From the NCBI GenBank assembly GCA_027315105.1, contig DAHUYP010000082.1, positions 1 to 64,000 of the forward strand: DNA of 64,000 bases, written 5' to 3'. Origin of the DNA: Gammaproteobacteria bacterium (GTDB taxonomy: Bacteria; Pseudomonadota; Gammaproteobacteria; Steroidobacterales; Steroidobacteraceae). Made by a program: the position numbers and the translations under genes. Positions 4,776 through 51,419 of the stretch are shown here, in pieces; positions within the stretch are counted from its first letter, which is position 1; each line of letters opens with the position of its first letter. Under the pieces are notes generated by a model. The model saw only the letters and a program-made list of their open reading frames with translations. It ran no database searches and was not told the origin of the DNA.

Positions 4776-7016
4776 TCAGCTCGCCCGGCGAATCTCGAAG
4801 CAGCGGTGAATGCGCGGATTGCGCACGAAATCGAACGGCAGCGTCCGCGCCGAGATGTCGCTGATGCGCCAGCGTTGCTCGAGCCCCTCGGCGAGGCGAA
4901 AGCGCTGCGCGTTGGTCGAGAACAGCAGCACGCCGTGCGCCGAGAGCAGCTGCATGCAGTGCTCGATCAGCTCGGGGTGATCGCGCTGGATGTCGAGCAC
5001 GCCCTGCATGCGCTTGGAATTGGAGAACGTCGGCGGATCGAGAAAGATCAGATCGAAGCGGCTCGCGCCGTCGGCGGCGCGCGGCGCTGCCGGCGCCGGC
5101 CCTGCCGGGCCCGCCGCCGCACGCAGCCACTCGCGGCAGTCCGCGCGCTCCAGCCGGTGCTGCGCCGGGTCCAGACCGTTGAGCCGCAGGTTCGCCGCCG
5201 CCCAATCGAGATAGCGGTTGGACAGATCGACGCTGAGCGTCGCGCGCGCACCGCCGGCGGCGGCATAGACCGTGGCGCTCGCCGTATAGCAGAACAGGTT
5301 CAGGAAATGCGCGCCGCGCGCGAGCTCGCGCAGGCGCGCGCGCGTCAGGCGATGATCGAGGAACAGCCCGGTATCGAGGTAATCATCCAGGTTCACGAGG
5401 AACTTGAGACCGCCCTCCTGGACCGCGAAGCCGTGCTCCCCCGGGCTCGGGCTCGAGTCGGGCCCCGCGCCGAGGCGCTGGTACTGCTCGCTGCCGCTCT
5501 GGCGCCTGCGCAACCGCAGATGAATGCGCTCGGGCGGCACCTGCAATACCTGCGGCAAGCTCGCCAGCGCCTCGCGCCGCCGCCGGCGCGCCGCCTGCGC
5601 ATCGATGCTCGCGGGCGGCGCGTACTCCTGCACGTGCAGGTGCACGACGCCCGAGCTTGCGTCCGCATAGCGGTCGACCGCAAAGGCATATTCCGGCATG
5701 TCCGCGTCATAGACCCGGTAGCAGCTCACACCCGCTCGCGCGGCCTGCCTGGCCAGGCGCTTTAGATTCTTCTCCAGGCGGTTGGCGAACATCTGCGCAC
5801 CGGGGCTGGCGGCGGCCTCGCTCGCCTGCTGTTGCCGCCGCTGCTCGACGTCCTCGGCGCCCGGAGCGGCGAGGTCGATGCGCAGCAATCGGCAGGGGAT
5901 GGCGCCATTCCAGAGCTCGTGCACCCGATAACTGCGCAGCCGCAGCTCGCGCGCCGTCTCGCTCGAGGCGCTCAGGATGGCGGCATCCCAGCCGGCGAAG
6001 TGGGCGCGCAGCGTGCGCCCGAGCTCGGCATAGAGAGCGCGCGCCTCGGTCTCATCGCCCAGCCGCGCACCGTACGGCGGATTGGTGCACAGCAGTCCGG
6101 GAGCGTCGCTGACAGCCCGCACGCTCGCGACCGCCTGCCGCTCGAAGCGCAGCAGCGGGGCGACCCCGGCGCGCTCGGCGTTGGCGGCGGCGATCGCCAG
6201 CGCCCGCTGGTCGATGTCGCTGCCGCGGATGATGCTCGCCACTGAATCCGCAGCGCGCTGCTCGGCCTCGCGCTTGAGGCGCTGCCAGAGGGCCGGATCG
6301 TGGCCCTTCCAGCCGAGGAAGCCGAAATAGTCGCGCTTGAGGCCCGGCGCGCGCCGGCCGGCGATCATGGCCGCCTCGATCACGAGCGTACCGGAGCCGC
6401 ACATCGGATCGAGAAACTCCGCGCCGCGCTCGGCCGCTTCGGGCCAGCGCGCGCGCAGCAGGATCCCGGCGGCGAGATTCTCGCGCAGCGGCGCCGCGAG
6501 CGCCTCCGTGCGGTAGCCGCGCCGGTGCAGGCCCTCGCCGGCCAGATCGAGCGCCAGCGTCACATGGCTGCCGTGAGCGTGCGCATGCAGACGCACCGCC
6601 GGGCGCGCCGGCTCGACGTCCGGCCGGGCGCCGGTGTCCGCGCGCAGGCGATCGCACACCGCGTCCTTCAGGCGCAAGGCGCCGAAATGCGTGTGCGTGA
6701 TGCCCGGATGCGCGCCGGTGAACGCGCAGGCGATGCTGCCCGCCGGGTCGATGTGCGCCGCCCAATCGATGGCGCGGACCTGGCGATAGAACTCGTCGGC
6801 CGTCGCCGCCTCGAAATCCGCGAGCTGCAGCAGCACGCGGCTGGCGACGCGCGACCACAGGCAGGCCCGATAGCCGGCCTCGAGCGGGCCGCTGAACGAC
6901 ACCCCGGCGCCGCGCTCGCGCACCCCGCCCGCTCCGAACGACTCGAGCTCGCGCGCCAGCAGATCGGCGAGGCCGCGCGGCGCCGTGGCGACGAAGGCAT
7001 GCTCGACCGCGCTCAA
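4776..7016 (-). CDS. rlmL: Bifunctional 23S rRNA methyltransferase RlmKL
   Basis: THUMP region, LDPMCGSGTLVIEAA and CTNPPYGARLGDE in the N-half; LNLFCYTASATVYAAAGGA and LDPPTFSNSKRM in the C-half. Confidence 0.95.
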   Translation of the reverse strand: MSAVEHAFVATAPRGLADLLARELESFGAGGVRERGAGVSFSGPLEAGYRACLWSRVASRVLLQLADFEAATADEFYRQVRAIDWAAHIDPAGSIACAFTGAHPGITHTHFGALRLKDAVCDRLRADTGARPDVEPARPAVRLHAHAHGSHVTLALDLAGEGLHRRGYRTEALAAPLRENLAAGILLRARWPEAAERGAEFLDPMCGSGTLVIEAAMIAGRRAPGLKRDYFGFLGWKGHDPALWQRLKREAEQRAADSVASIIRGSDIDQRALAIAAANAERAGVAPLLRFERQAVASVRAVSDAPGLLCTNPPYGARLGDETEARALYAELGRTLRAHFAGWDAAILSASSETARELRLRSYRVHELWNGAIPCRLLRIDLAAPGAEDVEQRRQQQASEAAASPGAQMFANRLEKNLKRLARQAARAGVSCYRVYDADMPEYAFAVDRYADASSGVVHLHVQEYAPPASIDAQAARRRRREALASLPQVLQVPPERIHLRLRRRQSGSEQYQRLGAGPDSSPSPGEHGFAVQEGGLKFLVNLDDYLDTGLFLDHRLTRARLRELARGAHFLNLFCYTASATVYAAAGGARATLSVDLSNRYLDWAAANLRLNGLDPAQHRLERADCREWLRAAAGPAGPAPAAPRAADGASRFDLIFLDPPTFSNSKRMQGVLDIQRDHPELIEHCMQLLSAHGVLLFSTNAQRFRLAEGLEQRWRISDISARTLPFDFVRNPRIHRCFEIRRAS

Positions 7017-8611: not shown

Positions 8612-10102
8612 TTACCAGGCACCCTTCTTCTGACCGACCCACCACACCAGTCCCAGGCCGATCGTTGGCTGGGCTCTCTCCAGCACTCCGAGCGAGTCGC
8701 CCAGGAAGTAGCGTTTATCGGACTGGTCGCGACGCAGCTCACCCATCACCAGAAAGCCATCGGCGGGGCGATAGTCGAGCGTCAACGTACCTTCCTTGAG
8801 GTACTGGGTCGTGCCGCTGAAGAGTCCGCCGACATCGGCGAGGTACTCGGCCCGCGCCGCGAGCGTCAACTTTTGCGTCAGCTGATAGGCGCCGTAGAGC
8901 GCGCCGCCGCTGACATGCTCGGGGCTCGAGAAGGAATACAGGCGCTGCTGCACGTAGTCCGCTTCGGCCTGCAGCGTGAGGGCCGCCGATGCTTGCCAGC
9001 TCACGTAGGTATCGGCGATCTGCAGCTTGCCGTCCGGTGCGTTGGCGATCGGCAGCACGTAGCTGCCCTGCTGATTCGGCAGATTCGGCTGTCCGGCAGG
9101 GGCACTCTGCAGATAGGCCACGTCCGCATGCTCCTGGCCCCGGTAGTAGTTGAACGTCCAGGTGATCGACGCAGCGGGCGTCAGCACGAAGCCCAGGAGC
9201 TGATCCTTGTAATTGTTGTTGTCCTCGGTCTGCTGCACGCCGTTGACGATCCACAGATTGACCACGAGCTCGTCGTTGACCGCGTATTTGGTCCGCAGGC
9301 CCATGTGATAGAAGGGCAGGAAGTCGTACCAGAGGGAGCGTGAGTAGTTCAGCTGGTCCTTGGTGTAATTGCCCTCGATCCCGAGCGAGCTGGCCCATTT
9401 GCCGAAATCCACAGTGAGGCCGCCGCCGACCGGAGCGACGTACGTGCCGTAGGCCTGGTAGATCGACCGGTAGAGGTTCGGTCGCAGCTCGTTGGCGGGG
9501 TTGCCCTGCATGGCCGCCGCCGCCTGGCCGTACTGCAGATCGAGGCGCAGGCCCGTCCGCTTGTCGATCGTCGGATCCGGCGCACTCTCCACCACCAGAT
9601 CCGCCTGATTGAGGCTGAAGCTGTTGCTGCTCACGTCATAGGCGCGCAGCGAATTGACGCGCCCGACCGGTGAATTGGTGTTGTACTCGTAGTAGCCATC
9701 CAGCAGCGCGTTGATGGTCATGCCGCGCAGCATGTCCGCGGCGACAGTGGCGGGCGTCGTTGCCGGCTTGCTCTCGCCGGCACCGGCGGCCGGGGATTGT
9801 GCTGCGGAGGATGCCGCCGGCACCGGCGGGCTCGCCGCGGCCGGGGCCGGCGATCCGGCGCTCGCGCCTTGCCCCGAGAGCTCTTCAACGCGGCGCCTGA
9901 GCTGTTCGACTTCGCGCCTGAGCTCGTCCACGCGCGGATCGGCGTCTGGCGCCGCCGCGCCCTCCGGCGCCGCCGCCGCGTCCGACGTGGCGGCGCCTTG
10001 GCTTTGAGCGGCAGCGAGCGGCATGTAGAGCACGGCGCACGCGGCGCCGGCCGCCATCAAGCGGCCGGCTGCGGACTCGATGGCGCGCCTGCAGCGGTGC
10101 AT
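8612..10102 (-). CDS. Outer-membrane beta-barrel porin (BBP2-like) with N-terminal coiled coil
   Basis: Signal peptide at MHRCRRAIESAAGRLMAAGAACAVLYMPLAAAQ, DELRREVEQLRRRVEEL coiled coil, long barrel-like region. Confidence 0.8.
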   Translation of the reverse strand: MHRCRRAIESAAGRLMAAGAACAVLYMPLAAAQSQGAATSDAAAAPEGAAAPDADPRVDELRREVEQLRRRVEELSGQGASAGSPAPAAASPPVPAASSAAQSPAAGAGESKPATTPATVAADMLRGMTINALLDGYYEYNTNSPVGRVNSLRAYDVSSNSFSLNQADLVVESAPDPTIDKRTGLRLDLQYGQAAAAMQGNPANELRPNLYRSIYQAYGTYVAPVGGGLTVDFGKWASSLGIEGNYTKDQLNYSRSLWYDFLPFYHMGLRTKYAVNDELVVNLWIVNGVQQTEDNNNYKDQLLGFVLTPAASITWTFNYYRGQEHADVAYLQSAPAGQPNLPNQQGSYVLPIANAPDGKLQIADTYVSWQASAALTLQAEADYVQQRLYSFSSPEHVSGGALYGAYQLTQKLTLAARAEYLADVGGLFSGTTQYLKEGTLTLDYRPADGFLVMGELRRDQSDKRYFLGDSLGVLERAQPTIGLGLVWWVGQKKGAW

Positions 10103-38308: not shown

Positions 38309-39040
38309 TCAGTCCTCGCCCGCGAGCCGGAATCGGACCCAAACCGCGTAGTTGAGGGCCTGATGCAGCAGCTTGGGCGGCGGGTCGGGAAAGCGCGTAT
38401 CGCGGACCGTTGCCAGCGCCGCGGCATCGAGCAGCGGCAGTCCGCTCGATTGCAGCAGCCGGATATTGCTGATCGCGCCATCCAGGTAATCGAAGCTCAC
38501 CTGCACCTGGCCATGCTGATGCAGCATGCGCGCGGCCGCGGGATAGTGGGTATTCACCGCCGCCTGAACCGCCCTCAATATCCTGGCCTCGAAGGTCTCT
38601 TCGGTCTGCGGCGCGGGAGCTGCCGGCGGGGGCGTGTAGGTCGGCCGCGGCGCCGCCACCGGTTGCTGCGGTACGTCGGTCTCGAGGTGCAGATCCAGCA
38701 GCGCCGGCACCACGATCGGCTGTATCTGCTGCTTGAGCAACGGCTTGAACTGCTCGTGCGGCTCGCGCCTGGGTTCTGGTTTCGGCGCCGGGGGCGCCAC
38801 GATCGACACCTGCAGCGCCTTGCTCTCCATTCTCACGATCCTGGGGGTCAAGCCGATGATCAGCGCCGCGGCCACCAGTCCCTCGAGCAGCAGTGCGCCG
38901 CCGAGTGCGCCGAGGCGCGGCCGGCGGCACAGGCGGGGCGCGGGCAGCGCCACCGGTGGTGGCAGCGCGGCCGGTCCCAACTGCATGGCCGTCGCGTCCA
39001 CCAGTGACAGGTCCAACCGCTGCGCCGCCGCGCCGCCCAT
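38309..39040 (-). CDS. TonB-family energy transducer
   Basis: Single N-proximal TM segment, proline-rich linker, C-terminal GQVQVSFDYLDGAISNIRLLQSSGLPLLDAAALATVRDTRFPDPP TonB-like fold. Confidence 0.82.
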   Translation of the reverse strand: MGGAAAQRLDLSLVDATAMQLGPAALPPPVALPAPRLCRRPRLGALGGALLLEGLVAAALIIGLTPRIVRMESKALQVSIVAPPAPKPEPRREPHEQFKPLLKQQIQPIVVPALLDLHLETDVPQQPVAAPRPTYTPPPAAPAPQTEETFEARILRAVQAAVNTHYPAAARMLHQHGQVQVSFDYLDGAISNIRLLQSSGLPLLDAAALATVRDTRFPDPPPKLLHQALNYAVWVRFRLAGED

Positions 39041-39048
39041 GACCGCGC

Positions 39049-41271
39049 TCAAAACGGTACCGACACGCTCGCGAACACGCTGCGTTCCGGAATCGTCCAG
39101 TACAGCGGCGTCCCGAGAGCGCCGGTATAGCCGGCCAGCGCGTAGATCTTGTTGGAGTTCAGCAGATTGTTGAACGCCACTTTGACCGTGGGCTTGGACG
39201 AGCCCCACAGTCCGTTCTCGAACGTATAGTCGAGCGCCCCATCCAGCGTGCTGTAGCTGCTGAGCGGGACCGCGGCATTGACGTCCCCGTATCGGTCGCC
39301 GACCCACTTGTCCATCAGCGAGGCATACCAGCCCGCATGGTTGTAGATCACGCCGAGGGCCGCGGTGCCGGTCGGTGCGTTCGGCAGCATCATGCCGGTG
39401 GCCTTTTCGGTGGTCCGGTTCACCGAGCCGTTGGCGTACAGGCTCACGCCCGAACCGACGTACAAGGTGGCCTCGGTCTCGACGCCCTGGTAGGTCGAGC
39501 CGCCGAGGTTGGTGTAGGTCGTGATGCCACCGACCGTCACCGGATTGATCTCGTTGTTGAAGTCGATGTAGTAGACGTCGGCGCCGAGGGTGAGCCGCTG
39601 GCTTTGCCAGACGGTCCCGAGCTGATAGTTCCAGGTCGTTTGCGGCTGCAGCGTGCTGTTGGACGCATTGACCCCCGGCCCGCGGTTGAAGAAATTCTCG
39701 TTCGGTGCGAGGAACCCTTTCGCCACCTGTGCGTAGGCGCTCCAGTTGCCGGCGATCTGGTAATGCGCCAGCAACGACGGCAGCACCGAGTCGTAGTTAT
39801 TGGTGTAGTTCGCCCCGATGCCGCTCTTGACGTCGACCTGCGCATCGACGTGCCGGCTGAAGTAGTCGTAGCGCACGCCGGGCGAGAGCGTCAGCCCGGG
39901 CAGCGCTTTCCAGTCCAGCTGCACGAACGGCTGCACGGTCGTCAGGGTCTGATCGAGCTCGCGGTCGATGCCGAGCAGGGCGTTGCCGACGTTGATCGGG
40001 TTGAATGCGCCCCCGAGCGTGTCGTCGATCTCGGTCAGCCGCCGCGTGTTGGTCTGGTAATCGCCCCAGATGCCGGTCTGAACGTCGCCGAAGGAGAAAT
40101 CCTTCCTGAGCTTGAAGGTATCACCCCAGGAGCGGTAGTAGTTCACCAGGTGCTGGCCCGGCACATCGAGCCCGGCGGGATCGTTCGGATTCACGTAACC
40201 GATCGTATTGTAATAGGTGCCGTTGGGTGTCTCGCCGTTGACGTCCTCGCCGTTGAAGCCGTCGTGGTAATAGGCGTAGGTGTAGACCTTGTTGTCGATC
40301 GCCCAGCCGGAATCGAGCACTGACTTGAGCCCGACGTATTCGAAGTCGGTATGGATCTGGTCCTGGTTGTAGCCGTGGTAGGCCTGGCTGTCCGGATTGT
40401 TGTTCAGCCCGTAGCTCGGTCCATTGGCAGCGATCTGGGCCTGCGTTGCGCCGATCGGCACGCCCTGGAACACGTTGTTGAACATGCCGACGAAGGTCAG
40501 CACGGTGTTGTCGCCGATGGGCTGCTCGCCCTTGGCAAACAGGTTCTTGCGCTGTTGCGACGCGTAGCTCAGGTAGCCATCGCTCGACAGGCTCTCGCCG
40601 TCGATGAACAGCCGGCCGCCGCCATACTTCGACGATTCGCCGCTGTCGAACTGGGCGCCGTAGACCTGCGTGTTCCAGCTGCCGAAGCTCGCGTACGGCG
40701 TGATGGTCGTGGTCGCGAGCGGATCCTTGGAGGCGATGCTGATCGTGCCGCCGAAGGTCGCGTTGCCGATGGTCGCCGCGGTGCCCGGACCGCGATCGAG
40801 CGCCATCGGACCGAGATCGTGATCCATGAAATACGAAGTCGAATGATGAGTGAAGTCGTTCGAGTCGTTCCACGGGATGCCATCGAAGGTCACGTTGTAG
40901 AAACCGTCCTGAAAGCCGCGGATGCTCATGATCTGGTTCTCCATGAGCCCCGGGCCGTTGGGATTCACGGAATAAACGCTCGGTGCCATGGCCAGGACGT
41001 CGGTGTAATTGGAAGACAGCGGCGTATTGTGCTCGATGTATTGCTGGCTGATCACCGAGGTCGGCTGGATCGCATCGAGCGGCACCTTGGTCGGCGCCTG
41101 GTAGGGCGCGGACTCGGGATTCTGCGCGGATTCCTGCTGCTCGCCGGTACCCGTGGTCTGCACGGTGCCGAGATTGACCGGATCGGCGGCCTCGGCCGGC
41201 GGCCCGGCGAACATCGCAAGATTGGTTCCGAGAACCAGTATCAGGGCGTGCTTGACGTGGACTTTGGACAC
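39049..41271 (-). CDS. TonB-dependent outer-membrane receptor
   Basis: Plug motif ...MSIRGFQDGFYNVTFDGIPWND..., long barrel, C-terminal ERSVFASVSVPF. Confidence 0.92.
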   Translation of the reverse strand: MSKVHVKHALILVLGTNLAMFAGPPAEAADPVNLGTVQTTGTGEQQESAQNPESAPYQAPTKVPLDAIQPTSVISQQYIEHNTPLSSNYTDVLAMAPSVYSVNPNGPGLMENQIMSIRGFQDGFYNVTFDGIPWNDSNDFTHHSTSYFMDHDLGPMALDRGPGTAATIGNATFGGTISIASKDPLATTTITPYASFGSWNTQVYGAQFDSGESSKYGGGRLFIDGESLSSDGYLSYASQQRKNLFAKGEQPIGDNTVLTFVGMFNNVFQGVPIGATQAQIAANGPSYGLNNNPDSQAYHGYNQDQIHTDFEYVGLKSVLDSGWAIDNKVYTYAYYHDGFNGEDVNGETPNGTYYNTIGYVNPNDPAGLDVPGQHLVNYYRSWGDTFKLRKDFSFGDVQTGIWGDYQTNTRRLTEIDDTLGGAFNPINVGNALLGIDRELDQTLTTVQPFVQLDWKALPGLTLSPGVRYDYFSRHVDAQVDVKSGIGANYTNNYDSVLPSLLAHYQIAGNWSAYAQVAKGFLAPNENFFNRGPGVNASNSTLQPQTTWNYQLGTVWQSQRLTLGADVYYIDFNNEINPVTVGGITTYTNLGGSTYQGVETEATLYVGSGVSLYANGSVNRTTEKATGMMLPNAPTGTAALGVIYNHAGWYASLMDKWVGDRYGDVNAAVPLSSYSTLDGALDYTFENGLWGSSKPTVKVAFNNLLNSNKIYALAGYTGALGTPLYWTIPERSVFASVSVPF

Positions 41272-41445: not shown

Positions 41446-43185
41446 CTACGGGTCTTTGCGCGCCGCCGCGCGCGCAATGCGCCCGAGGTGCCAGGCCAGC
41501 ACGATCCCGGTGACGCTGCCGAGCACGGCGATCGGCAGCAGATCCGTCAACAGTTGCGATGAGCTGTGGCCGGCCGCCTTGAGCGTGCCGCCGAGCTTCG
41601 GTCCGACGATCGAGCCGATGCGTCCGATGGCCACCGCCATGCCAACCCCCGCCCCGCGGATCGAGGTCGGATAGCACGCCGGCGCGACCGCATACAGGAA
41701 CGCCGGTGCGGCCAGGACCGAGCAGCCCAGCGCGGCGACGATCAGCACCACCCAGAGCAGCTGCGCGGGCGCCCGGCTCAGCAACAGCAGCGTCACCGGC
41801 ACGGCGATGAAGATCGTCAGCACGGTGGCGCGCCGCAGCCGGCCTTCGAGCAGACGGCCGACCAGCAGCGCCGCCAGGCCGCCGCCGACGTTGAACGCGA
41901 TCTGTGCCCCGGCGGCCTGCGCCTTTGTCAGGCCGTTGCCGGCCAGCAGAGTCGGCAGCCAGCTCAACAGCAGATAGATCATCACCAGGCTCAGAAAGAA
42001 GCTGCTCCAGAGCAGCAGCGTCGAGACCGCCCGGCCGCCCGAAAGCACCGCCTTGAAGCTGCCGGCCCTGGGAGTCGCGATCGGCCCGCCGCCCGCGATG
42101 CCGGGTGCGCTCACGAGCGAGCGAGCGCGCTCGAAGGCCGGTGATTCTCGCAGCACCGAAAGCATGATCGGCACGATCAGCAACGGTGCCACGCCACCGG
42201 CGATGAATATCCATCGCCAATGCGAGGACGCGATCGACATGCTGATCAGGCTGGCCAGCGCACCGCCGAAAGGCATGCCGGCGTAGACCAACGCGACGTT
42301 GGCGCTGCGGCGGTTGGCGGCACTGCATTCATTGACCAGCGCCACGAGGTTCGGCAGCGCGCCGCCGAGACCGAGTCCCGTCAGCAGCCGGGCCCAGGAC
42401 AGCGACCGGATGTCCCAGGCCAGCGGCGTGAGCAGCGAGAACGAGCCGAACAGGGCGATCGACGCGATCAGCACGCGCCTGCGGCCGATCAGGTCCGACC
42501 ATCGCCCCCCTGCCAGGGCGCCGAAGAACAGGCCGAGCGTGCTGGCACTGAAGAACGTGCCCAGCTGCTGCGCATCGGGCCTGAGCTCGGGCACGATGCC
42601 GCCTGCAGCCACGCCGGCGGCCTGCAGATCCATGCCCTCGCAGAACGCCGCCAGTACGCAACAGATGATCGTCGCCGCGCTGTGTGCCGCATGCTGGCGA
42701 TTCGGGAGCCGTCCACGATCCAACACCGCCGCCGCGAGCAGGTCGAGCACGGTGAATGCGATGACGGTGCCGCAGATCTCTGCGACGCTCAAGCCGAGCG
42801 GGGCCGCCAGCACGAGCATCGGCAGCAGGGCTTCGGGCAGTTGATCGATCAGCGGCGCGGACCGTCCGCTCGCTTGACCGAGACGTCGCTTCAGGAACGA
42901 GGACAGCAGATCGCCCAGCAGGGTCAGCAATCCGAAAGCCGCGCCCGTCAACACTCCGACCCGCAGCAGGGCGCCCGTCAGCGCCGCCGCAAGCGTACCC
43001 GCGATCAGGCCGCGCCAGGTCTTGTGGGCCCCGAACAGGGCTCGCCCGTCGGGCAATGTGACGCCGGCATCGATCGGTCGATCGAAGCGCCGGTGCAGCA
43101 GCCAGGCGCTGAGCACCGGGGCGGAATTGGCTGCGATCACCAGCAGCAGCGCGCGCGCGTCGATGAACGCAGACAGGTGCGTCAC
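41446..43185 (-). CDS. Fusion protein: N-terminal CarS-like (CDP-archaeol synthase family) membrane domain plus C-terminal AAHS-type MFS transporter
   Basis: One 579-aa ORF. N-half: NSAPVLSAWLL...GRALFGAHKTWRGLIAGTLAAALTGALL...GDLLSSFLKRRLG...DQLPEALLPML. C-half: CEGMDLQAAGVAAGGIVPEL, GGRWSDLIGRRRVLI, RLLTGLGLGGALPNLVAL. Confidence 0.8.
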   Translation of the reverse strand: MTHLSAFIDARALLLVIAANSAPVLSAWLLHRRFDRPIDAGVTLPDGRALFGAHKTWRGLIAGTLAAALTGALLRVGVLTGAAFGLLTLLGDLLSSFLKRRLGQASGRSAPLIDQLPEALLPMLVLAAPLGLSVAEICGTVIAFTVLDLLAAAVLDRGRLPNRQHAAHSAATIICCVLAAFCEGMDLQAAGVAAGGIVPELRPDAQQLGTFFSASTLGLFFGALAGGRWSDLIGRRRVLIASIALFGSFSLLTPLAWDIRSLSWARLLTGLGLGGALPNLVALVNECSAANRRSANVALVYAGMPFGGALASLISMSIASSHWRWIFIAGGVAPLLIVPIMLSVLRESPAFERARSLVSAPGIAGGGPIATPRAGSFKAVLSGGRAVSTLLLWSSFFLSLVMIYLLLSWLPTLLAGNGLTKAQAAGAQIAFNVGGGLAALLVGRLLEGRLRRATVLTIFIAVPVTLLLLSRAPAQLLWVVLIVAALGCSVLAAPAFLYAVAPACYPTSIRGAGVGMAVAIGRIGSIVGPKLGGTLKAAGHSSSQLLTDLLPIAVLGSVTGIVLAWHLGRIARAAARKDP

Positions 43186-43260
43186 CGCGGCAGTATAGCC
43201 GCGAGCGCATGCGCGTGAAGGCCGTAACCGGCGGACCGCGCCGACGCCGTCGCCCGCCGT

Positions 43261-44019
43261 TCAGCGCGAGAACAGATGCCGTCCGCCCTCTTCGCTGACC
43301 TTGTAGCGGCTGCCGAGGCTGTAGCGCGATCCGGGGTAGGTGAAGATGCTCCGGGTGACGGGCACGCCGCCGACCCAGGTGCGGCGCGTGAGCACCAGGC
43401 ACGGCTCGTCGGTGTCGATCTTGAGCAGTTTCTGCGCGCGTTTGTCGGGCAGCGTCGCGAACACCACGTGATCGACTTCGGTGGGCGGTCCGATGCCGAG
43501 CAGGTACTTGCCGGGGGCCTGCCGCGAGAAATCCTGCTCCAGATAGGCCGGGGCGAATGCCGGTGTCACATAGCGCTCCTCCAGCTGCACCGGCACGCCG
43601 TCCTCCTTGTGCACCACGATCGAGTGGAAGATCTTGGCGCCGGGCCGCAGCTCCAACAGCGAGGCCATGTCGGCGCTCGCGCGTACGGCCTCCAGGGCCA
43701 CGATCTTCGCTTGATGGGTGTGGCCCCGGGAGACGACGTCGTCGGTGATGTCGCGTACCTCGAGCAGCTCCGATCGGGTCTGCGGCGCGGCGACGAACGT
43801 GCCGACGCCCTGAACCCGCGACAGCAGCCCCTGCGTGGACAATTCGCGCAGCGCGCGATGCACGGTCATGCGCGACACGCCGAGCGTGCGTACCAGTTCG
43901 TTCTCCGACGGCAGGCGCATGCCGCTGGTCCACTCGCCGCCCCGAATGCGCGTCAGGATGTAGCGCTTCACTCTCTCGTAGAGTGCGGTCGGTCCCGTAT
44001 CGGCGCCGGCGATCGGCAT
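43261..44019 (-). CDS. hutC: GntR-family histidine utilisation repressor
   Basis: LYERVKRYILTRIRGGEWTSGMRLPSENELVRTLGVSRMTVHRALRELSTQGLLSRVQGVGTFVA plus UTRA domain; next to hutI. Confidence 0.93.
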   Translation of the reverse strand: MPIAGADTGPTALYERVKRYILTRIRGGEWTSGMRLPSENELVRTLGVSRMTVHRALRELSTQGLLSRVQGVGTFVAAPQTRSELLEVRDITDDVVSRGHTHQAKIVALEAVRASADMASLLELRPGAKIFHSIVVHKEDGVPVQLEERYVTPAFAPAYLEQDFSRQAPGKYLLGIGPPTEVDHVVFATLPDKRAQKLLKIDTDEPCLVLTRRTWVGGVPVTRSIFTYPGSRYSLGSRYKVSEEGGRHLFSR

Positions 44020-44068
44020 CAGACTCTCCCGACCTGGCATGGCGGGGCGCGGCGCCCGGCATCGAGGT

Positions 44069-45331
44069 TCATGTCGGCATCCGTGCCGCGGGCGAGGCCG
44101 CGGGCGAGGCCGCGGTCGGCTCGCCGCGAAAGACGCGGCCAAGCGGCGTGATGCCGTCGATCCAATAGCTGAGCTCGGCCGGTCCGCTGCAGTCCCAGAT
44201 GGCAAAATCGGCGCTCTTGCCCTGCTCGAGCGTGCCGATCTCGTGCAGCAGCCCGAGCGCGCGCGCCGCCTCGCGCGTGTAGCCGGCCAGCGCCTCGGCC
44301 GGCGTCAGGCGGAACAGCGTGCACGCCATGTTCATGATCGTTCCGGGGTTCAGGATCGGCGCCGTTCCCGGGTTGCAGTCGCTCGCGATCGCCATCCTGA
44401 CGCCGTTGGCGCGCAGCGCGTCGATGGGCGGTGGGTGCGTCTCGCGCAGGCAGTAGAACGCCGCGGGCAGCAGCAGCGCCACCGTGCCCGCCTGCGCCAG
44501 GCGCGCGATGCCGTCGGCGCTGGTGTATTCGACATGATCGGCGGACAGCGCGCGATACCGCGCCGCCAGCGCACCGCCGCCGCCGTCGCTCAGCTGGTCG
44601 GCGTGCAGCTTGACGGGCAGCCCGAGCGCGCGCGCGGCGTCGAACAGGATTGAGATTTCCGGCGCCGAGAAGGCAACGTGCTCGCAGTACGCATCCACGG
44701 CGTCGATCAGCCCCTCGGCGGCCAGCGCCGGCAGCAGCTCGCGCGCGACGTGCGACACATACTCGGCGCGGCTGGCGCCGAATTCCGGCGGCATGGCATG
44801 GGCGCCGAGAAAGGTCTTGCTGACACGCATGGACAGGCGCTCGCCGACCAGCTGCGCTGCACGCAATTGCTTGCGCTCGTCCGCCAGCGACAAGCCGTAG
44901 CCCGATTTGATTTCCACCGTGGTCACGCCCAGGGCGGCCAGGCGCGCGGCGCGCGCCAATGTCAGCTCGGCGAGTCGCTCCGGTGAGGCGGCCCGCACCG
45001 CGCGCACGGTCGACAGGATGCCGCCGCCGCGCTGCTGGATGTCCTGGTAGCTGGTGCCTGCCAGCCGCTGCTCGAACTCCGCGCTGCGCTCGCCGGCGAA
45101 TGCCAGATGCGTGTGGGCGTCGATGAGGCCGGGTGTCAGCCACGCGCCATGCAGGTCGATGCATTGCCTGGAGAGTTCCGATGGTTCCCCGGGCAGCTCG
45201 GCGCGCCGGCCGATCCATGCGATCCGGCCCGCGGCGGCCGCCACGGCGCCATCTTCAATGATCCCATAGGATCCATCGGCACCGGCCATGGTCGCCGCAC
45301 GGCAGTTGATCCATAAGCGATCCCAACGCAT
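44069..45331 (-). CDS. hutI: Imidazolonepropionase
   Basis: LTPGLIDAHTHLAFAGERSAEFEQRLAGTSYQDIQQRGGGILSTVRAVR, VKLHADQLSDGGGGALAA. Confidence 0.96.
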   Translation of the reverse strand: MRWDRLWINCRAATMAGADGSYGIIEDGAVAAAAGRIAWIGRRAELPGEPSELSRQCIDLHGAWLTPGLIDAHTHLAFAGERSAEFEQRLAGTSYQDIQQRGGGILSTVRAVRAASPERLAELTLARAARLAALGVTTVEIKSGYGLSLADERKQLRAAQLVGERLSMRVSKTFLGAHAMPPEFGASRAEYVSHVARELLPALAAEGLIDAVDAYCEHVAFSAPEISILFDAARALGLPVKLHADQLSDGGGGALAARYRALSADHVEYTSADGIARLAQAGTVALLLPAAFYCLRETHPPPIDALRANGVRMAIASDCNPGTAPILNPGTIMNMACTLFRLTPAEALAGYTREAARALGLLHEIGTLEQGKSADFAIWDCSGPAELSYWIDGITPLGRVFRGEPTAASPAASPAARMPT

Positions 45332-45360
45332 CGCGCTCCGGTGGCCCTGCGGACCTCAAG

Positions 45361-45374
45361 ACGTCTATACATGT
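45361..45374. promoter_or_regulatory. Candidate HutC operator upstream of hutI
   Basis: acgtctatacatgt (reverse complement acATGTATAGACgt) resembles the HutC half-site TGTATAGACA; about 30-45 bp upstream of the hutI start. Confidence 0.5.
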
Positions 45375-45532
45375 CGTGGCAGACGACGTGGGCCGCATTG
45401 TAGGAAACAAATGCCGCTGCTGACTAGAAGCCGCGTCCAGCGCTTGTTCCGGAATTCCGGACGGCCTGGAAGTGGGCTAAGCTAGCCTCGGAGGGCCCCT
45501 GGCGCCGAACCCTCCAGGAAATGGCGTGGAAC

Positions 45533-46522
45533 ATGTCGGCTGGCACCCGGAACCGCATTCTTTTTCTGCTCGTGTGGTCTTCCTCCGCCGTCGCGCTGGC
45601 GCAAGGAAGACTGGAGCTCACGTACCTGGGAACGGCCGGATGGGAGATCAGTGACGGCCAAACGGTAGTTCTCGTCGATCCGTACCTGACGCGACTGAAG
45701 AGCAACACGCCTAACGATCCGGCATTGGCGTCCGATCCGCGTCCGCTCGTGGGAGACGACGATTTCGTCACATCCGACCAGACGGTGATCGATGCGCATA
45801 TCAGAAAAGCGGATTACATTCTGATCACGCATACTCACGTCGATCATGTGCTCGATATGCCCTATATCGCGCGCAAGACCGGCGCGCTGGTCATCGGAAC
45901 GGAGAGCACGGCTAATTTCGCCCGCGACAGCGGGGTGTCCGGCAGCCGGATTCTGACCGTAAGGGGCGGCGAGGACCTGCAACTGCGCGATTGTTCCATC
46001 CGCGTCATCCCCAGTCTGCACGGCATCTTGCCGGGCAGCGCGCAGTTGCCGCCGCCGTCAACCATTTTTCCCGCCAACACGAAACCGCCGTTCCGGCTCG
46101 GGCAACTCTTCGTGGAAGGCGGAACGCTCGCCTTCCTGATTCGCATGGCTGGCCACCAGATCATTGCATTTGGATCGATGAACTACATCGAACGTGAGAT
46201 CGACGGCTTGCGGCCGGATGTGGCATTGATCGGTGCTATGCCGGAGCGGCAAAAGATCTATCACTACACGCAACGCCTGCTTCAGGCCATCGGCTACCCC
46301 CCTCTCGTGATGCCGACTCACTGGGACCGTTTCAATGTTCCGTACGATGTCTCACAACAGCCCGCCATCGACAGGCTTCAGTCCTTCGTTGCAGAAGTGC
46401 AGGCGGTATCCCCGCACACACAAGTGATCGTCCCGGAGTATTTCACTCCGATCATTGTTGAGTCCTCTCCTGCGGCTGGTAGAGAGAAAGCCTCGAATCC
46501 CGCCGATCGTCCGACACCGTAA
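45533..46522 (+). CDS. Exported metallo-beta-lactamase-fold hydrolase
   Basis: Signal peptide RNRILFLLVWSSSAVALAQG, then LELTYLGTAGWEISDGQTVVLVDPYLTR and HTHVDHVLDMPYIA metal-binding motif. Confidence 0.85.
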   Translation: MSAGTRNRILFLLVWSSSAVALAQGRLELTYLGTAGWEISDGQTVVLVDPYLTRLKSNTPNDPALASDPRPLVGDDDFVTSDQTVIDAHIRKADYILITHTHVDHVLDMPYIARKTGALVIGTESTANFARDSGVSGSRILTVRGGEDLQLRDCSIRVIPSLHGILPGSAQLPPPSTIFPANTKPPFRLGQLFVEGGTLAFLIRMAGHQIIAFGSMNYIEREIDGLRPDVALIGAMPERQKIYHYTQRLLQAIGYPPLVMPTHWDRFNVPYDVSQQPAIDRLQSFVAEVQAVSPHTQVIVPEYFTPIIVESSPAAGREKASNPADRPTP

Positions 46523-46585
46523 AGCGAACACGGCACCGGGACTTAATCCGATCACGACCCGACACTCGGTTTTCTGCCGCACTTG

Positions 46586-46601
46586 CCTATACAAGTATAG
46601 G
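46586..46601. promoter_or_regulatory. Candidate HutC operator upstream of hutF
   Basis: cctatacaagtatagg: palindromic 7-bp arms around AA; contains CTATACAAG/CTTGTATAG as in HutC sites. Confidence 0.6.
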
Positions 46602-46732
46602 TGTGATTAGCTTCCGGATCGGGGCCGACGGCACCGCAGGACCAGCCATGAACGATCGAGCCACGCTGCACGACCTCGGCGACGCCCGGGCGCCGGATCG
46701 GGGTTGCGTGCGGCGCTGCTGCGCGGCCCGCC

Positions 46733-48142
46733 GTGGCGCACGGCCGCGACACGGGAGGGGCGGTGCAGTTGCTGTTTGAGCGCGCGCTGCTTCCTTCCGG
46801 CATAGCCCGCAACATCGCCGTTTCGGTCGCTGCCGACGGCACCATCGATCGCGTGAGCGCCGATGCGCCGCCCGACGGCTGCATCCCCGTGCGGGGGCTG
46901 GCCCTCCCCGGCATGCCGAATCTGCACAGTCATGCCTTCCAGCGTGCGATCGCGGGCACCGCCGAGATCGCAGCCGGCGCCGACAACTCATTCTGGAGCT
47001 GGCGCGACGTGATGTATCGATTCGTCGAGCGCCTGCAGCCCGAGGACGTCGCCGCAATCGCGGCCTTCCTGTACGTCGAGATGCTCGAAGCCGGTTACAC
47101 GTCGGTGGCCGAGTTCCACTACCTGCATCATCTGACCGACGGTGGGCCATACCTGGACCCGGCCACCTTGTCGCATGCGGTCCGGGACGGCGCCCGCCAG
47201 GCCGGAATCCGCCAATTGTTGCTGCCCTGCCTCTACCAGCGATCCGGATTCGACGCCGCCGCGACGCGGCCGGAGCAACGCCGCTTCGCACTGCAGACCG
47301 ATGCCTTTCTGCGCCTGTTCGAGACGCTGCGCTGCCAGAGCGAACCGCTGCAGACGGCCGGCGTGGCACTGCACAGCCTGCGGGCCGTCCCGCCCGCAGC
47401 GATTGCAGACGTGGTCGCGGCCGCGCCGGCGCCGATACCCGTGCATGTGCACGTCTCGGAGCAGCGGCGCGAAGTCGATGAGTGCCGGCGGCGCTTCGGC
47501 CGACGGCCGATCGAGCTGCTGTTCGATTCGGCCCGCATCGATGCCCGCTGGTGTCTGGTGCACGCCACGCACGCCGCGCCAACCGAGCTCGAGGCGATCG
47601 TGCAGGCCGGAGCGGTGGTCGGCCTGTGCCCCACGACCGAGGGCAACCTGGGCGATGGCCGATTCCCGCTCGATGAGTTCGCGGCCTCCGGAGGCCGCTT
47701 CGGCATCGGCTCCGACAGTCACGTGTCGGTCGATCCGCGCGAGGAGTTGCGCACGGCCGAATATGCGCTGCGGGTCTGGCGAGAGCGCCGCGCGCTGGCT
47801 TCGAGCGCCTCGCGGCCGCATTGCGGCAGCTTTCTCTACGCCGCCGCGGCCGCCGGCGGCGCGCAGGCGCTGTCGCTCGGGCGCGGCGAGCTGGCCGCGG
47901 GCGAGCCGGCCGACATCGTCGTGCTCGACACCGATCGTGCCGAGTTCGCGGGCGTCCCGGCTGAGGCGCTGCTCGATGCCTACATCTTCGCGCCGCGCCC
48001 GGGCGCGCTGCGCGACGTGCTGGTCGGTGGGGCCTGGACCGTGCGCGACGGCCGCCATCCGCGACGCGACGCCATCGCGCAGTCGTATCGGCGCTGCCTG
48101 GCGCGCCTGCGCTCGGCCGAGCCGGGGGCAGGACAGCCATGA
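46733..48142 (+). CDS. hutF: Formimidoylglutamate deiminase
   Basis: [68 protein letters not shown]; start approximate. Confidence 0.95.
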
Positions 48143-48185
48143 TCGATATCGCCGCAGCACGGCCCTGCGATCGAGGACCTTAGCC

Positions 48186-49859
<1,674 letters not shown>

Positions 49860-51419
49860 ATGGCTGCGCGCGGCACCAGGCCCGGCAAACCGCAGGCGCG
49901 CATGCACCTGCGGCTCGGCGAATTGGACCTCGCGACGCTGCGGCGGGTCACCCGGCAGCCGGTCTCGGTCGCGCTCGGCCGCGATCAATTGCAGAAGCTC
50001 AAGGCCGGCGCCGCGGTGGTCGGCAGGCTGGTGGCGCAGGAGCAGATCGCCTACGGCATCAACACCGGGTTCGGGCTGCTCGCCCAGACCCGCATCGCAC
50101 GCGATCAGATCGAAGCGCTGCAGCGCAATCTCGTGCTGTCGCATGCAGCCGGCACCGGTGAGCTGCTGGCGGACGAGATCGTGCGCCTGATTCTGCTGCT
50201 GAAGGTCGCGAGTCTCGCGCAGGGCTACTCCGGCGTGCGGCCCCGGACCGTGCGTGCGTTGTGCGCCTTGCTGGAACACGGCGTCTATCCCTGCATACCC
50301 TGCCAGGGTTCGGTCGGTGCTTCGGGCGATCTGGCGCCGCTGGCCCACCTCGCGGCGGCGCTGATCGGCGTCGGCGAGGTGCGGATCGGCGGCGAGATCA
50401 TGCCGGCGCTCGCCGGCCTGCAGCGCGTGGGCCTTGCGCCCGTGGCGCTCGGACCCAAGGAAGGGTTGGCGCTTCTGAATGGAACCCAGGTGTCGACGGC
50501 GCTGGCGCTGTGCGGATTGTTTCGCATCGAGGACGTCATGGCCGCGGCGCTGCTGGCCGGCGCGCTGTCGGTGGACGCCGTCAAGGGCAGCGACGTGCCG
50601 TTCGAAGCGCGCATCCACGCCATTCGGCGCCAGCAGGGCCAGCAGGACGTCGCCGCCGCCTTTCGCCGGCTGCTTGCCGGCAGCGCCATCCGCGCATCGC
50701 ACCTGAACTGCGAACGCGTGCAGGATCCGTACTCGATCCGCTGCCAGCCGCAGGTCATGGGAGCCTGCCTCGATCTGTGGCGCGCCGCGGCCGCGACCCT
50801 GGCACGCGAGGCCAACGCCGTGACCGACAATCCACTGGTATTTCCGGACGACGGCGCGGTCTGTTCCGGCGGCAACTTCCACGCCGAGCCGGTCGGCTTC
50901 GCGGCCGACCAGCTGGCGCTCGCGATCGCCGAGATCGGCTCCATCGCCGAGCGGCGCATCGCCATTCTGGTCGACCCGAAGATGAGCGGCCTGCCGCCGT
51001 TCCTGGTCGACAACAGCGGCGTGAATTCGGGCTTCATGGTGCCGCAGGTGACCGCGGCCGCACTGGTGGCCGAGAACAAGGCCCTGGCCCATCCGTGCAG
51101 CGTCGACAGCATCCCGACGTCCGCCAATCAGGAAGATCACGTGTCGATGGCGACCTACGGCGCACGCCGGCTCGCGAGCATGGCGGACAATGCCGCCGTG
51201 ATCGTCGCGATCGAGCTGCTCGCCGCCGTGCAGGGCATCGAGTTCCATCGGCCCCTCAGAAGCTCGCCGATCCTCGAGCGCACCGTGGCGCTGGTGCGCG
51301 CGCGAGTCGCGCATTACGCCGCGGACCGCTTCTTTGCGCCCGACATCGCCGCGGCGAAGGCACTGGTGGTGTCCGGGGTGTTTCGGTCCTATCTGCGGGA
51401 GGCGGGACTTGAGTCATGA
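49860..51419 (+). CDS. hutH: Histidine ammonia-lyase
   Basis: [15 protein letters not shown] and [16 protein letters not shown] (Ala-Ser-Gly MIO prosthetic group motif). Confidence 0.97.

Follow-up and report, generated by a model that had tools for sequence, protein, structure and literature searches.

The archaeal CarS enzyme is described in a review as a protein of five helices with two cytoplasmic loops (PMC9385802). Standalone bacterial CarS-like proteins, which comprise ~165 amino acids, share their length, motifs, and predicted five-helix fold with the N-terminal half of the protein analyzed here, but in them the chain stops immediately behind the last helix, and none continues in frame into an MFS domain. 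Fusion of an MFS transporter to an enzyme of lipid metabolism has been reported for LplT and Aas, an MFS lipid transporter and an acyltransferase that are encoded by a single ORF in some bacteria (PMC11416262). The gene described here is likewise a single ORF for an MFS transporter and an enzyme of lipid metabolism, but the MFS family and the enzyme are different and their order is opposite. It does not belong to the LplT-Aas type of fusion, since its partners are CarS-like and MhpT-like.

This gene is located in the window, i.e., the whole stretch of 64,000 nucleotides of DNA that was analyzed, which originates from a fragmented MAG (G000; 2.79 Mb, 91 contigs, completeness of 86.7%). Search of the open-access literature retrieved no description of a CarS-MFS fusion, in agreement with the initial annotation, which did not recognize such a fusion as described.

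A CarS-like domain and an MFS transporter in one reading frame

The uninterrupted ORF of 579 codons claimed by the initial annotation was present exactly at the position indicated in Table 1, with a GTG start and no internal stop. This start codon fits the family, since CarS homologues begin at the same place (e.g., MSDWISLRGLALLVAANSAPV). The upstream promoter-like site was identified by consensus match only, one such site being found versus 0.2 expected. Pfam analysis of the complete ORF assigned residues 36 to 150 to PF01864 (E value of 5.7e-15, or 2.5e-17 for a query restricted to residues 1 to 171) and residues 177 to 529 to MFS_1 (E value of 3.7e-34). Searching the two halves separately led to the same domain result. 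Both of the domains that had been claimed to share one frame are complete, with Pfam matches far above the curated cut-offs.

Table 1. Coordinates of the fused ORF, its parts, and its neighbors in the window
Feature	Position	Strand	Size, evidence, or remark
Fused ORF, CarS-like domain + MhpT/AAHS-like MFS transporter	41446..43185	(-)	579 aa
CarS-like domain of CDP-lipid synthase type (residues 1-165; five helices predicted)	42691..43185	(-)	PF01864, alignment, model
MFS transporter domain (MhpT/AAHS-like), residues 163-579	41449..42699	(-)	MFS_1, MhpT model, congener orthologues
Junction, codons 158-166, where homologies to the CarS C terminus and the MFS N terminus overlap; short linker, predicted to be cytoplasmic	42688..42714	(-)	Homologue ends, frame, topology
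Out-of-frame GTG, codon position 157.3	42714..42716	(-)	Sole candidate for a separate MFS start at the position expected
Promoter-like site TTCACG-16-TATACT	43192..43219	(-)	Shortly before the GTG start; consensus match only
HutC, histidine-utilization repressor, upstream neighbor	43261..44016	(-)	TIGR02018, 287 bits (cut-off, 220)
HutI imidazolonepropionase	44069..45331	(-)	TIGR01224, 422 bits (cut-off, 298)
TonB-dependent receptor, downstream neighbor	39049..41271	(-)	PF00593/PF07715

The CarS half belongs to the PF01864 family, with scores of 56 to 64 bits for a gathering score of 22. Unlike archaeal CarS, it scored below the curated NCBIfam cut-off of the archaeal CDP-archaeol synthase equivalog NF003114 (69 to 74 bits versus 148). 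Every column that was invariant in an alignment of 17 sequences (the window and 16 relatives from the same family) was retained in the CarS half, and its conserved residues include D39, G47, KTWRG (55 to 59), D92, S96, KRR (99 to 101), D114, E118, and P122. The best CarS relative displayed 58% identity with this half. In the AlphaFold model, the block pLDDT was 92 to 98 over residues 11 to 150. The only PDB match of the model below an E value of 0.001 in a Foldseek search was the CDP-archaeol synthase CarS from Aeropyrum pernix (5GUF; E value of 4.7e-05, TM score of 0.72 of the target), which was also retrieved by the sequence profile of the CarS half and which shares with it the fold and the conserved KT..G, GD..SF.KRR, and LDQL motifs. 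The CarS half is a full-length bacterial CarS-like domain, and its predicted activity is most likely the formation of a CDP-lipid from CTP and a lipid phosphate. Among the relatives, the closest one (L086 in G035) carries an 80-residue C-terminal tail that resembles out-of-frame sequence.

The MFS half matched PF07690 with 118.6 bits (gathering score, 33.4) over positions 2 to 347 of the 347-position profile. The best NCBIfam model was that of MhpT (NF008586), which covered the whole domain with 389.4 bits, a little short of its equivalog cut-off (410); that of AAHS (TIGR00895) ranked next, with 256.6 bits for a cut-off of 418.55. Unlike the MhpT/AAHS aromatic-acid symporters, the domain is preceded by a CarS domain and lacks a separate in-frame start codon where one would be expected. 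Its standalone orthologues in the congeners G004 and G009 (72% and 70% identity, respectively) have their start codons, ATG and GTG, at the position of window codon 158, where the window itself has GGA. Judging from these alignments, the MFS half is complete except for its first few residues, and its predicted function is most likely the proton-coupled uptake of an aromatic or related acid. An aromatic-acid substrate would suit the transporter, since the G004 orthologue lies near genes of the homogentisate pathway (4-hydroxyphenylpyruvate dioxygenase and fumarylacetoacetase). Unlike in G004, the neighbors of the fused gene in the window are histidine-degradation genes.

The AlphaFold model of the fused protein, which was based on alignment A6, was confident for the CarS half and of low confidence for the MFS half. 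In that model, the last CarS helix ends at residue 157 and the first MFS helix starts at residue 164, the latter within the low-confidence half. Alignments A2 and A4, in which full-length MFS proteins were aligned with the entire fusion, were discarded, as they misplaced the first MFS helices onto CarS. The linker is rich in Lys and Arg residues and is therefore predicted to be cytoplasmic by the positive-inside rule. A CarS C terminus and an MFS N terminus that are both located inside imply that the predicted topologies of the two halves fit. The fused protein is probably composed of ~17 helices, with two tethered and independent predicted activities.

Reading frame and sequence accuracy at the junction

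The ends of the CarS homologues mapped to window residues 158 to 173 for 79 of the 80 GTDB homologues, mostly exactly after residue 165. Endings such as NRPY, KRPY, and RQPH are common; the window contains NRQH at residues 162 to 165 and then continues. On the MFS side, the frame was conserved back to codon 162 (NRQHAAHSAATIICC in the window, NRDRPGLAVATIVCC and GRDHVGHAATTIVCC in the congeners). The in-frame fusion proposed by the initial annotation was retained, but its boundary was not: MFS homology begins at residues 162 to 163 rather than at ~172, and CarS homologues end at residue 165. Similarity to the CarS C terminus extended in frame to residue 163, with a score only ~3 bits above those of truncated or frame-shifted versions, a difference that weighs little.

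The next stops in the two other frames are located at codons 232 and 285, far past the ends of the CarS homologues. A missing or extra base near position 42675 is disfavored because neither of these frames has a stop near the joint and because the MFS frame is conserved to codon 162. This frameshift, which had been put forward as an alternative to fusion, was rejected, since codons 170 and 171 lie within MFS homology that is already in frame from codon 162 and since CarS would gain no stop. An indel ~25 bases upstream of 42675 is possible but not favored. We tried every single-base change in codons 150 to 175 for the restoration of two ordinary genes. Four insertions had this effect, versus no deletion and no substitution, and loss of the CarS stop by a single substitution was therefore rejected. 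One of the edits was located in the allowed interval, defined as compatible with both homologies and with a start near codon 158: a base inserted before codon 162 creates a stop there and places the GTG at 42716 in the MFS frame. In a control performed with 2,000 joints made of randomly drawn codons, 49% had at least one repairing edit, with a mean of 4.2 edits versus 1 here. Since about half of the randomized joints offer such an edit, its existence is weak evidence of an error, and it was not accepted as proof of one, the randomized joints having more of them.

This single edit defines the main alternative to fusion, a consensus or assembly artifact in which two adjacent and slightly overlapping genes have been joined by a missing base (codons 161/162) or by a chimeric join, implying a CarS protein of ~161 amino acids and a transporter starting at the GTG at 42716. 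That GTG is located within one codon of the start of the congeners' transporters, and the insertion before codon 162 is sufficient to restore two ordinary genes, but the site lies outside any homopolymer, similarity to CarS runs on in frame past codon 161, and about half of the randomized joints can be repaired as well (see above). A chimeric join, for its part, would have to fall in frame exactly at a domain boundary, which would be a coincidence.

The accuracy of the MAG bears on the same question. A frameshift survey, in which ~0.94 Mb of the MAG was compared to ~1.2 Mb of relatives (mostly G004), aligned 199 genes and 63,000 residues, corresponding to ~190 kb of testable coding DNA. Inspection showed that most of the 11 raw candidates corresponded to antisense ORFs or to boundaries between genes. 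A phosphoglycerate-kinase-like gene, so named from a recognized motif rather than a family search, was broken by an additional G in a homopolymer in comparison to G004 (L223, ~9919 to 10055, G000:C30), and comparison of the sequences suggests that this G is probably an assembly error. A likely frameshift, with a 4-base difference from G004, was detected in a conserved gene encoding 721 amino acids in G004 (L262, ~5477 to 5567, G000:C49). Consensus errors thus occur in the MAG, at roughly one per 100 kb, with at least one clear indel in the ~190 kb that could be tested. The fusion was seen in one genome only, with no second genome supporting it, and this genome is a fragmented MAG that is not free of errors; both facts count against a real fusion. 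Balancing these observations, we consider the artifact unlikely, if clearly not negligible.

A contiguous ORF might also give rise to two products, the full-length fusion and a transporter initiated internally at the in-frame GTG or TTG of codons 154 and 155. These codons are located a few codons upstream of the congeners' start position, but no clear ribosome-binding site was found there by inspection and, in the model, they belong to the last CarS helix, making internal initiation the least probable of the explanations considered.

Distribution and genomic context of the fusion

Surveying homologues for the same architecture, as the initial annotation had suggested, we found the CarS-MFS combination in none of the CarS homologues surveyed. 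It was absent from more than 100 other CarS homologues, for which the ORF ends were read directly, and no such ORF was present in the 38 matching genomes of the family, in 50 in the order sample, in 97 in the class sample, or in 80 GTDB loci; there is overlap between these sets, and CdsA-type proteins probably account for some of the weak CarS matches. None of the other matches in the order and class samples lay in an open frame exceeding 535 codons, a length that cannot accommodate CarS together with a complete MFS protein. Long open frames containing CarS in G228, G320, G178, and G109 were rejected, the extra length being an upstream open frame. As the initial annotation had stated for such proteins in general, CarS and AAHS-type proteins are separate in the relatives. 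Within the genus, a CarS-like gene was found only in the window genome and in G007, in which the copy is separate and 41% identical. Relatives encoding two separate genes had been named as an observation that would speak against fusion; half of this observation applies to the congeners G004 and G009, in which the transporter is a gene by itself and has a start codon, but CarS is absent there.

CarS-like domains were found in frame with other partners in Gammaproteobacteria. In four ORFs of 475 to 530 codons, a CarS-like domain precedes a calcineurin-like metallophosphoesterase (L307 in G783, L310 in G576, L311 in G673, and L312 in G688), as determined by Pfam for the G783 protein and by eye for the other three. 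A further ORF encodes a CDP-alcohol phosphatidyltransferase followed by a CarS-like domain (L308 in G680; PF01066 and PF01864), which from its domain content is a plausible two-step lipid enzyme. As in the window, the CarS-like domain is fused in frame, but the partner is an enzyme rather than a transporter, and fusion to the metallophosphoesterase is found repeatedly, in several genomes. These fusions indicate that the CarS family tolerates fusion.

A block comprising the transporter, an aldehyde dehydrogenase, an alanine dehydrogenase, and an Lrp regulator is common to the window, G004, and G009, with 70 to 93% identity. In the window, the genes for CarS, HutC, and HutI are located upstream of the transporter, with urocanase and a HutH-like aromatic amino acid lyase farther on. 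CarS had no match in G004 or G009, and none of the congeners searched yielded a close match to HutC, the one in G011 being at 34%. The joint therefore coincides with a break in synteny, since CarS and HutC are absent beside the syntenic transporter locus of G004 and G009. This break is compatible with a rearrangement giving rise to the fusion, and also with a chimeric contig. CarS adjoining hut genes was found in no other genome. Based on gene comparison, the hut segment (43261 to 51419) appears to have been acquired or differentially lost. The hut cluster (HutC, HutI, urocanase, and HutH-like lyase) also contains a metallo-beta-lactamase-fold gene in its middle. On the other side of the fused gene, a TonB protein and a TonB-dependent receptor (38309 to 41271) separate the transporter from the aldehyde dehydrogenase; the corresponding gap in G004, of ~0.9 kb, is too short for both.

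Proposed origin and significance of the fused protein

Together, these results lead us to favor, with some reserve, a real, young, and species-restricted in-frame gene fusion. In such a scenario, a segment carrying a CarS-like gene beside hut genes would have come to lie directly upstream of an ancestral gene for an MhpT/AAHS-type transporter, and the joint would have removed the CarS stop codon together with the start codon and the first residues of the transporter. The product would be one inner-membrane protein of ~17 helices, in which a five-helix CarS-like domain with a cytoplasmic C terminus would be connected by a linker of ~6 to 10 residues to a 12-helix MFS symporter with a cytoplasmic N terminus. 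We infer that the DNA is correct as assembled and that the protein is produced. Each half would keep its own activity, and the tether would most likely be incidental. We hold it slightly more probable than its opposite that the gene represents a genuine new architecture, associating a CarS-like CDP-lipid synthase and an aromatic-acid-type MFS symporter in one 17-helix polypeptide and created at the border of a hut/CarS segment that was acquired or rearranged.

Tethering might instead be functional. By analogy with the lipid transporter LplT and its partner Aas, an acyltransferase, the MFS half could, for example, deliver a substrate or lipid to the CarS-like enzyme or take one away from it. 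The existence of fused LplT-Aas ORFs (PMC11416262) and the integrity and predicted topological compatibility of both halves are consistent with this proposal, but the MFS half resembles aromatic-acid symporters rather than LplT, its G004 orthologue lies near homogentisate-pathway genes, and restriction of the fusion to one genome gives no sign of long selection. A functional tether thus appears very improbable, and the coupling of a CDP-lipid enzyme to transport envisaged by the initial annotation was not supported, as nothing found bears on coupling.

Fusion is the likelier reading of the locus, and its meaning is, at present, modest. If the locus were an artifact, it would illustrate how one base in a MAG can create the appearance of a new architecture. 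If real, the fusion would show that a rearrangement can join two unrelated multihelix membrane proteins with preservation of topology. It would also draw attention to bacterial CarS-like proteins, which are also fused to metallophosphoesterase and CDP-alcohol phosphatidyltransferase domains. The recurrent CarS-metallophosphoesterase fusion may say more on the function of bacterial CarS-like proteins than the fusion found in the window.
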